A DNA stretch of 64,000 nucleotides from Eubacterium sp. (GTDB lineage Bacteria; Bacillota; Clostridia; Lachnospirales; Lachnospiraceae): positions 1-64,000 of the forward strand of contig JAILRB010000014.1 of assembly GCA_024698585.1 (NCBI GenBank). The letters run 5' to 3'. Below, piece by piece: positions 41,543-49,388 of this stretch (positions are counted from its first letter, which is position 1; each line of letters starts with the position of its first letter). Below the pieces are notes generated by a model that was not told where the DNA came from, did not search any database, and saw only the letters and a list, made by a program, of their open reading frames with translations. A program made the position numbers and the translations under genes.

Positions 41543-41662
41543 CTTCTTCAAGTTTCCTTTTCTTGTATTTTGCATATGAGCATCTTTATTCTAGCACGTT
41601 TTTTATTAATTGAACACATTTGTTCTTACCACCATCTTGTTGTTTTGCACTTTGGTATGGGA

Positions 41663-41733
41663 CATTCGCCGAATGGCTCCTCCTTTTTACAAACGCCTTC
41701 TTATTGATTTCCGCTTACGCGTCAATCAATAAG
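41663..41733. repeat. Palindromic sequences outside element A
   Basis: CATTCG-C-CGAATG (41663-41675) repeats the centre of the element A palindrome. CTTATTGATT (41700-41709) is the inverted copy of AATCAATAAG (41724-41733), which lies inside element A. This looks like a degenerate inverted partial copy next to the main element. No gene lies in 41576-41852. Confidence 0.6.
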
Positions 41734-41852
41734 CGACGGACATTCGCCGAATGTCCGTCAAAATAAAAAGAACACGTAGCAGAGTTTCATGCGAGCATGA
41801 AATCTTGCTACGTGTTCTTTTTATTTTAAGCCGTTTGGCTCATTGTTTACGC
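41719..41852. repeat. Palindromic element A (MITE/REP-like), abutting the ilvC 3' end
   Basis: 134-bp element with imperfect terminal inverted repeats (GCGTCAATCAATAAGCGACGG at the left; at the right, inverted, GCGTAAACAATGAGCC...CGG). Inside are a 25-nt palindrome GACGGACATTCG-C-CGAATGTCCGTC (41735-41759) and a 68-nt hairpin (41760-41827). It has the same order of parts as element B at 49160-49312. The right end touches the ilvC stop codon (41853-41855). It codes for nothing. Confidence 0.7.
41760..41827 (-). terminator. Long hairpin of element A serving as ilvC terminator
   Basis: 22-bp perfect outer stem (AAAATAAAAAGAACACG... with ...CGTGTTCTTTTTATTTT), a 3-nt bulge region, and an inner stem TTTCATGC-GA-GCATGAAA. 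Transcribed leftwards from ilvC it ends in a T-rich arm. Confidence 0.75.
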
Positions 41853-42899
<1,047 letters not shown>

Positions 42900-49159: not shown

Positions 49160-49312
49160 CGTTAGCAATGAGATGTGAACTCGGAGAGCGAAGCTCTCCT
49201 TCGTCACGGCATTCGCCGTGACGTAAAATAAAAAAGAAACGAAGTTCTTACGAAAGCGAGCTTTCGACGAACTTCGTTTCTTTTTTATTTTGTTCACTTC
49301 TCATTGCTAACG
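49160..49312. repeat. Palindromic element B (MITE/REP-like), abutting tRNA-Thr(GGT)
   Basis: 153-bp element. Terminal inverted repeats: GTTAGCAATGAGATGTGAAC (49161-49180) and its inverse at 49292-49311, one mismatch. Inside: hairpin GGAGAGC-GAA-GCTCTCC (49183-49199), palindrome CGTCACGGC-ATTC-GCCGTGACG (49202-49223) and a 67-nt hairpin (49225-49291). Same order of parts as element A. The right end lies 4 nt from the tRNA 3' end. Confidence 0.75.
49225..49291 (-). terminator. Long hairpin of element B, likely tRNA-Thr(GGT) terminator
   Basis: 23-bp perfect outer stem (AAAATAAAAAAGAAACG... with ...CGTTTCTTTTTTATTTT) and inner stem CGAAAGC-GA-GCTTTCG. The tip GCGAGC is the same as in element A. 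Confidence 0.75.
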
Positions 49313-49316
49313 TGAA

Positions 49317-49388
49317 AGCTGATGACGGGAATTGAACCCGTGACCTCTCCCTTACCAAGGGAACGCTCTACCCCTGAGCCACATCAGC
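49317..49388 (-). tRNA. tRNA-Thr (anticodon GGT)
   Basis: Cloverleaf on the minus strand: acceptor GCTGATG/CATCAGC, D-stem GCTC/GAGC, anticodon stem TTCCC/GGGAG with loop TTGGTAA (anticodon GGT, reading ACC/ACU), T-arm ACGGG/CCCGT with loop TTCAATT. CCA not encoded. Confidence 0.95.

Follow-up and report, generated by a model that had tools for sequence, protein, structure and literature searches.

A repeated, structured element at the 3' ends of ilvC and a tRNA-Thr gene in Eubacterium sp., and its likely relation to Clostridiales-1

The stretch of Eubacterium sp. DNA that was analysed, 64,000 nucleotides long and called the window here, carries on its minus strand the gene call for ilvC (ketol-acid reductoisomerase, 41853-42878) and a tRNA call for tRNA-Thr (49317-49388), each with a multi-hairpin element directly on its 3' side. 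The element behind ilvC, copy A, spans approximately 41690-41852 on the minus strand. Read in the direction of the gene, it consists of a left box, GCGTAAACAATGAG (41839-41852), the 5' arm of a closing stem P1 (CAAACGGCTT, 41828-41837), a terminator-like hairpin H1 with A/U tracts and a GCTCGC tip (41760-41827), hairpin H2 formed by the CATTCGGCGAATG palindrome (41735-41759), hairpin H3 (41700-41733), which has a homologue at ilvC in congeners, and the 3' arm of P1, AAGGCGTTTG (41690-41699), which is the right end of the element. The three hairpins were located by repeat finder and folding. P1 is a terminal inverted repeat with 10-nt arms that are 90% complementary; it is not formed by RNAfold and was placed by the repeat finder and both of the covariance models described below, one of which (R2) matches at 41690-41854. 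Beyond the right end, a second CATTCGGCGAATG at 41659-41683 probably marks a decayed second right module, judged by eye against the tandem modules of other copies. The region folds far more stably than its shuffles (z -10.8, 0 of 200 as stable).

A first-pass annotation of this DNA had described the 68-nt hairpin and the CATTCG-C-CGAATG palindrome of copy A, and the inverted-repeat search returns both, the former with 33-nt arms, 91% complementary and 2 nt apart, and the latter with 12-nt arms, 100% complementary. The AT-rich outer arms of the hairpin, which it had pointed out, correspond to the A/U tracts that a two-way terminator normally has. It had begun the element at 41719, which falls inside H3, and the repeat spanning that interval (14 nt, 79%) is not the conserved terminal one. 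The element was also said to end exactly at the ilvC stop codon; it does directly abut the TAA (41853-41855), which is not part of it. Certain other copies include the stop codon in their left part.

Copy B follows the tRNA-Thr gene on the same strand. Its left box and P1 5' arm (CGTTAGCAATGAGAAGTGAAC, 49292-49312; repeat finder, folding and letters) lead into H1, with A/U tracts and the same GCTCGC tip (49225-49291), H2 (CGGCGAATGCCG, 49202-49223), H3 (49183-49199; folding and letters) and the P1 3' arm (49160-49180); H1, H2 and the closing arm come from repeat finder and folding, and R2 matches at 49167-49315. Here the terminal inverted repeats are those of the first-pass annotation, with 21-nt arms that are 95% complementary, and the folding z is -14.0 (0 of 200 shuffles as stable). 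On the strand of ilvC and the tRNA both copies thus have the same order: left box, P1, H1, H2 with GGCGAATG, H3 and the closing P1 arm. The left boxes, GCGTAAACAATGAG in A and CGTTAGCAATGAG in B, end in CAATGAG in both and recur in further copies, which bears out the noted likeness of the two ends. In H2, CATTCG pairs with CGAATG in A and CGGC with GCCG in B, so the letters GGCGAATG are kept while the pairing register shifts.

The left box, tip and H2 taken together as a pattern occur at five places in the 2.51-Mb host genome and at none in a reversed control. Across 23 genomes of the genus, host included, the pattern gave 15 rows in eight genomes (control 0), of which by eye 11 are elements and four, L173 among them, look unrelated. 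Five copies were aligned with structure ignored: the congener loci L174, L172 and L176, host copy D and a copy from G212 that is linked to a tRNA. Folded singly, all five give one plan, in which H3 is interrupted by internal loops of GA/GA and GAA/GAA type and capped by a three-base loop; DNA hairpins are stabilised by GNA loops and GA/GA pairs. In the alignment 94.4% of cells pair, against 34-44% in slid controls, and 14 of the 33 pairs change on both sides, a count matched by 0 of 500 shuffles; P1 and H3 covary too, so the signal extends outside H1. The compensatory change noticed between A and B is therefore real at the level of the family. An alignment fitted to the model (95 distinct rows) has two-sided change in 33 of 33 pairs, a figure that leans towards the model.

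A covariance model built from the five aligned copies, R1, gave 25 rows in the host, which we interpret as 18 loci, including one remnant. It recovers five host copies on which it was not trained: B (58.8 bits), the rplQ copy (38.5 bits), the rplJ copy (65.1 bits) and, more weakly, A (20.2 bits, E 0.04) and a copy at an etfA-like gene (19.1 bits, E 0.08). Because A was weak with R1, a second model, R2, was made from 68 matches of 64 loci with A, B and the etfA-like copy left out. Applied to the window, this model scores B with 67.0 bits (E 2.9e-14) and A with 30.0 bits (E 2.3e-5), and its third-best match has 11 bits (E 0.87).

These results bear on the simplest alternative, that A and B are ordinary intrinsic terminators which resemble each other through chance pairing and the usual A/U tracts. 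H1 does have the form of a terminator, A/U tracts are common to unrelated terminators, and a plain terminator follows ilvC in most congeners. That a model blind to both copies matches both, with the next match in the window at E 0.87, rules out a chance likeness as the full account, although it could apply to the role of H1 alone. The left box, H2 and H3 common to A and B, the covariation outside H1 and the five pattern matches against none in the reversed control likewise count against it, and we regard the alternative as highly improbable.

The first-pass annotation had staked its proposal on further copies in the host and its relatives, and such copies are plentiful and agree in left box, tip and stems. 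R1 matches all 23 genomes of the genus, with a best E value no higher than 1.8e-5 in any of them (as many as 133 candidates were scored in a genome), and at least 119 of 200 sampled Lachnospiraceae at E<=0.1 (15 candidates scored per genome). The copies are about 150 nt long, have no coding capacity, are multi-copy and dispersed, and carry terminal inverted repeats in the form of P1, which reach 15 nt in copies of G099 and G038; these are traits of a miniature inverted-repeat transposable element (MITE). An A/B-type copy had no match among plasmids and phages, nor had three exact end or motif patterns among viral contigs. We found no description of the family in the parts available to us of the open-licence literature, including PMC10969869, PMC8040213, PMC2864571 and PMC3049150.

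In some copies the right module, H2-H3-P1', is tandemly repeated, three times in copy D. Tandem right modules or larger parts, with the P1' arm kept each time, are seen at L162 (host contig C14, minus strand), L174, L176 and L322:2286-2742. A multi-hairpin repeat of another sequence type, with its third hairpin and closing arm duplicated, lies at about 134640-134850 of host contig C41 (L050). Within G099 and within G143 the outer parts of copies are nearly identical at unrelated genes. The G143 copies (L282-L287) have longer outer parts in common, with AAATTCCGGTTT before and a terminator-like hairpin after the element, and several contigs of that genome end in or near a copy. In G106, AAATTATGGTTT flanks the element on both sides as a direct repeat in two copies (L288, L289) and is either part of the unit or a target feature.

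The A/B copies are mostly placed in the sense orientation at the ends of genes. Placement was assessed for 73 full-length elements picked from 101 rows, leaving out tandem part-modules, opposite-strand echoes, duplicates and some weak rows; upstream genes were called by a simple open-frame rule and ARAGORN. An upstream gene could be called for 69, and the element is co-directional with it in 57 of these and starts within -21 to +6 nt of a stop codon or tRNA end in 34, counts that are not independent since copies within a genome are related. If each genome is represented by a single copy, an upstream gene is callable in 28 of 29 genomes; 24 of these 28 copies are co-directional and 13 lie at a gene end. 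In the host, co-directional loci number 14 of 18; of 13 host copies examined more closely, 10 have a co-directional frame whose end falls at most 6 nt ahead of the element or at most 21 nt within it. The upstream genes that could be named are rplJ, rplQ, purA, purL (partial), a purH-type formyltransferase gene, ung, glmS, an etfA-like gene and ilvC, the purL and etfA-like calls scoring below their curated cut-offs. Orientation varies by genus, with 7 of 7 fetched copies co-directional in G046, 2 of 4 in G038 and 1 of 7 in G099; the six G099 copies that oppose their upstream gene count against an account by oriented placement. The proposal of a multi-copy, non-coding, MITE-like family that sits mostly at gene ends and may serve as a portable terminator is thus supported as regards copies and placement.

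The putative terminator is H1, which in both A and B is a stem with a U-rich tract in the direction of the gene. A T-rich 3' foot of H1 is found in 51 of 69 elements, and hairpins with both A and U tracts occur at four places in the genome and at none in the reversed control. A terminator scan flagged neither the H1 of A nor that of B, because the T tract lies inside the stem. This is also where H1 departs from intrinsic (Rho-independent) terminators: it likewise has a G/C-bearing stem followed by a U-rich tract, but its tracts are part of the stem and it sits inside a larger conserved structure. One copy (L258/L166, about 109850-109992 of host contig C59) lies between rplJ and rplL in a ribosomal operon, downstream of an L10 leader, and by a crude test its H1 foot is not T-rich, as the operon would require. 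We suggest from the form of H1 that the ilvC and tRNA-Thr transcripts probably end there. The presence of a U-tract and placement at a gene end show no association (p 0.78); the U-tract is thus unsupported as the cause of gene-end placement, terminator use alone does not explain that placement, and it is chiefly this lack of association that speaks against an account driven by termination alone.

The arms of H1 vary between copies and yet are 83-100% paired. In seven G046 copies the H1 arms are 63-65% identical against 83% for the right part, and in seven G099 copies 71-73% against 94%. At one site in G201 and G207 the copies L174 and L176 are identical to 100% in the left part, 95% in the right part and 94% over 300 nt upstream, and to 63% in H1. 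Such variation had been read as evidence of selection on structure. Template switching can equalise the arms of a hairpin, and the compensatory change in H1 might then be mainly mutational, with one arm templating the other, a reading we consider unlikely. The wholesale replacement of H1 at one site with its neighbours kept (L174 against L176) is what it would produce, as is the single H1 type that, by eye, the tandem copies of one array seem to have in common and that differs between G038 and G223. The covariation of P1 and H3 is less easily accommodated by it, as is a bias among mismatches: on the sense strand the H1 arms of the 73 elements, with wobble not favoured, hold 71 G.T against 22 A.C, an excess to which the gathering of elements with an RNA model may have added and which would not be expected from arm copying alone. 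Host copies alone show the bias as well (15 against 4), a separate count from which 11 weak hairpins were left out gave 32 against 6, and the bias points to a sense strand that folds as a single strand, be it RNA or DNA. A copying of H1 arms from elsewhere in the genome was also considered and rejected, as BLAST of copy A gave no strong arm match outside A.

The family is likely to be one of two sequence branches of a superfamily whose other branch is Clostridiales-1 (RF01699), listed as an RNA of unknown function by Weinberg et al. (2010; PMC2864571); in the portion of that article available to us, its table row has 'y' for RNA and 'n' in the next two columns. RF01699 matches neither A nor B up to E 5, and its gathering cut-off of 48 bits is not reached. 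Two siblings in the same genome exceed it (L272, 60.6 bits; L261, 52.0 bits), and two more lie below (L259, 43.3 bits; the etfA-like copy, 42 bits). The description of the element as undescribed therefore calls for a reservation, although A and B themselves have no such match. A fast genome-wide RF01699 search listed no host match over the cut-off, though L272 and L261 pass it, so the fast search misses some matches. Conversely, of 27 Clostridiales-1 loci R1 matches two in place (15.0 and 13.5 bits) and R2 six (16.5-25.4 bits, E 3.8e-4 to 0.053); the remaining 21 have no in-place R2 match at E<=1. Like A and B, Clostridiales-1 has a closing stem, H1, H2, H3 and the closing stem again in the same order, with a GCUUGC tip on H1 and GCGAAU on the 3' side of H2. 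A and B differ from it in having neither the GGGTCAAAAGG ends nor the extra end hairpin.

Clostridiales-1 looks like a MITE. At least 113 of 200 Lachnospiraceae have a match to RF01699 at E<=0.01 and at least 86 one over the cut-off (13 candidates scored in each), and G038 has 42 places including the query, the others 91-99% identical to it (40 candidates scored). Its copies are bounded by TGATRCCAGGGTCAAAAGG and CCTTTTGACCCCAACATCA, which form an inverted repeat. Exact 5-bp repeats, typically TTATA, TAATA or TGATA, flank 27 of 41 copies and exact 6-bp repeats six of 41, against 4.1% and 0.1% in a control with mispaired flanks; the 41 were required to have both terminal repeats (at most 3 substitutions) and a recognisable tip, and some of them are shared as orthologues by G222 and G224. 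At one of the loci occupied in G038, G222 and G224 have no copy and G223 has a shortened one. A copy of this type lies on the 243-kb Butyrivibrio fibrisolvens plasmid pNP243 (L365), with six places similar to the plasmid's own copy, and a Clostridiales-1 copy matches 12 unannotated phage records from human faeces. The pNP243 copy sits between response-regulator and histidine-kinase genes. In placement the two branches diverge: A/B copies are oriented and at stop codons, whereas Clostridiales-1 has no orientation bias and has 5-bp duplications. Called without ARAGORN, 16 of 39 Clostridiales-1 copies are co-directional with the upstream gene and five of 39 lie at a gene end (Fisher p against A/B 1.5e-5 for orientation and 1.4e-4 for gene-end start).

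Comparison with relatives shows that the element has persisted by vertical descent at ilvC. The gene is present in 21 of the 23 genus genomes, host included, and an R2 element lies directly after it in the host, G201, G206 and G207 (29.8-35.5 bits); G212 has a divergent form (R2 26.6 bits) and G210, by eye, a truncated one. The other 15 genomes have no R2 match behind ilvC and, by eye, have plain or differently shaped terminators there. In 30 of a set of 80 loci, two of them congeners, R2 found nothing behind ilvC, and one match elsewhere had E 0.7. The presence of the element at ilvC in several congeners indicates that copy A is old and inherited rather than a fresh insertion. Decay is also seen: L263 (host contig C3, 22665-22782) is a remnant that has lost the left part and the 5' arm of H1 and kept the right module, and its counterparts in G201 and G207 (L174, L176) are whole. 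An A/B-type array with inverted repeats GTTACAGTCCAGCCATGCA is present in G038 and G223 and absent from G222 and G224; here, as for the Clostridiales-1 copy of G038, loss rather than insertion may account for the difference. For A and B themselves no clean empty site was found in relatives, and in a target-site duplication test of the A/B branch (11 rows, two of them from one locus) no offset stands out.

We suggest, with reasonable though far from complete confidence, that A and B belong to an old, MITE-derived and structure-constrained 3'-end module in which H1 acts as terminator, and that this module is a divergent branch of the Clostridiales-1 superfamily. The superfamily would have arisen as a mobile, MITE-like element with P1 as its terminal inverted repeat, a state observed for Clostridiales-1 and extended here to A and B. 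Most A/B copies would then have come to lie co-directional with the preceding gene, many of them starting at its stop codon or tRNA end, and in A and B the H1 stem with its A/U tract would terminate transcription intrinsically. An RNA that stops at H1 leaves P1 unable to close; since P1, H2 and H3 are nevertheless conserved, they may have a role in read-through transcripts or in a once-mobile DNA form, and the sense strand may have to fold single-stranded either as read-through RNA or as DNA to which a mobility protein binds. The sequence of events that we favour begins with an old mobile origin and leads to later use as a 3' end, in effect a domestication.

Two other histories deserve weight. 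The A/B branch could be a 3'-UTR RNA element, concerned with processing, stability or regulation, that is inherited or recombined and is not mobile, mobility being confined to Clostridiales-1. The orientation (57 of 69, or 24 of 28 at one copy per genome), the sense-strand G.T excess, the inheritance at ilvC in four species and a divergent form, the failure to find target duplications in 11 rows and the rplJ-rplL copy with its foot poor in T all agree with such an element, which leaves the near-identical outer parts at unrelated genes in G099 and G143, the G143 contigs that end at copies, the terminal inverted repeat P1 and the presence or absence of an array at one orthologous site to be explained otherwise; on balance we hold it to be rather improbable. 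Alternatively, the branch may be a mobile element that moves as a folded single strand, places itself in sense orientation at the stop codon of its target, or at its 3' end in the case of a tRNA, and gives the target a new 3' end, H1 being rewritten in each copy and always paired, and would then be a sister to the classical MITE with its 5-bp duplication. We rate this proposal as doubtful. The preferred reading remains the older mobile origin followed by use as a 3' end.

Integron attC sites, too, lie near stop codons and are co-directional, with a variable paired stem between conserved ends; an attC site forms one hairpin, has R and L boxes and lies beside cassette genes, whereas A and B have three hairpins and lie beside core genes and tRNAs, and the likeness is a general one. 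REP sequences, single hairpins with a foot tetranucleotide and a linked gene for a RAYT (Y1) transposase, differ from A and B in anatomy by eye. The Drum RNA was considered as an identity and set aside, since the Rfam searches gave no match of that name. Comparable in character are SPRITE, BOX and RUP of Streptococcus pneumoniae, described in the parts of PMC3049150 available to us as short, dispersed and strongly folding repeats: SPRITE lies near the 3' ends of coding sequences and is thought to have been co-opted as a terminator, with no duplication or empty site found, and BOX is modular, with middle parts that can be repeated. The comparison is with these descriptions rather than with the sequences; by them, SPRITE consists of a single 18-bp duplex that has a U-rich tract and ends in AAAA/TTTT, unlike the A/B element with its three hairpins within a closing stem and its repeated right module.

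The results offer a testable answer to what Clostridiales-1 is, namely a MITE that has terminal repeats and duplicates 5 bp of its target, and describe a sister branch that is sense-oriented at the ends of core genes and tRNAs in Lachnospiraceae, a major gut family. Because H1 changes freely and yet stays paired, it makes a good case in which to separate selection for structure from mutation by arm copying. Together, the two branches allow a recently mobile structured repeat to be compared with one that has apparently come to be used as the 3' end of a gene.
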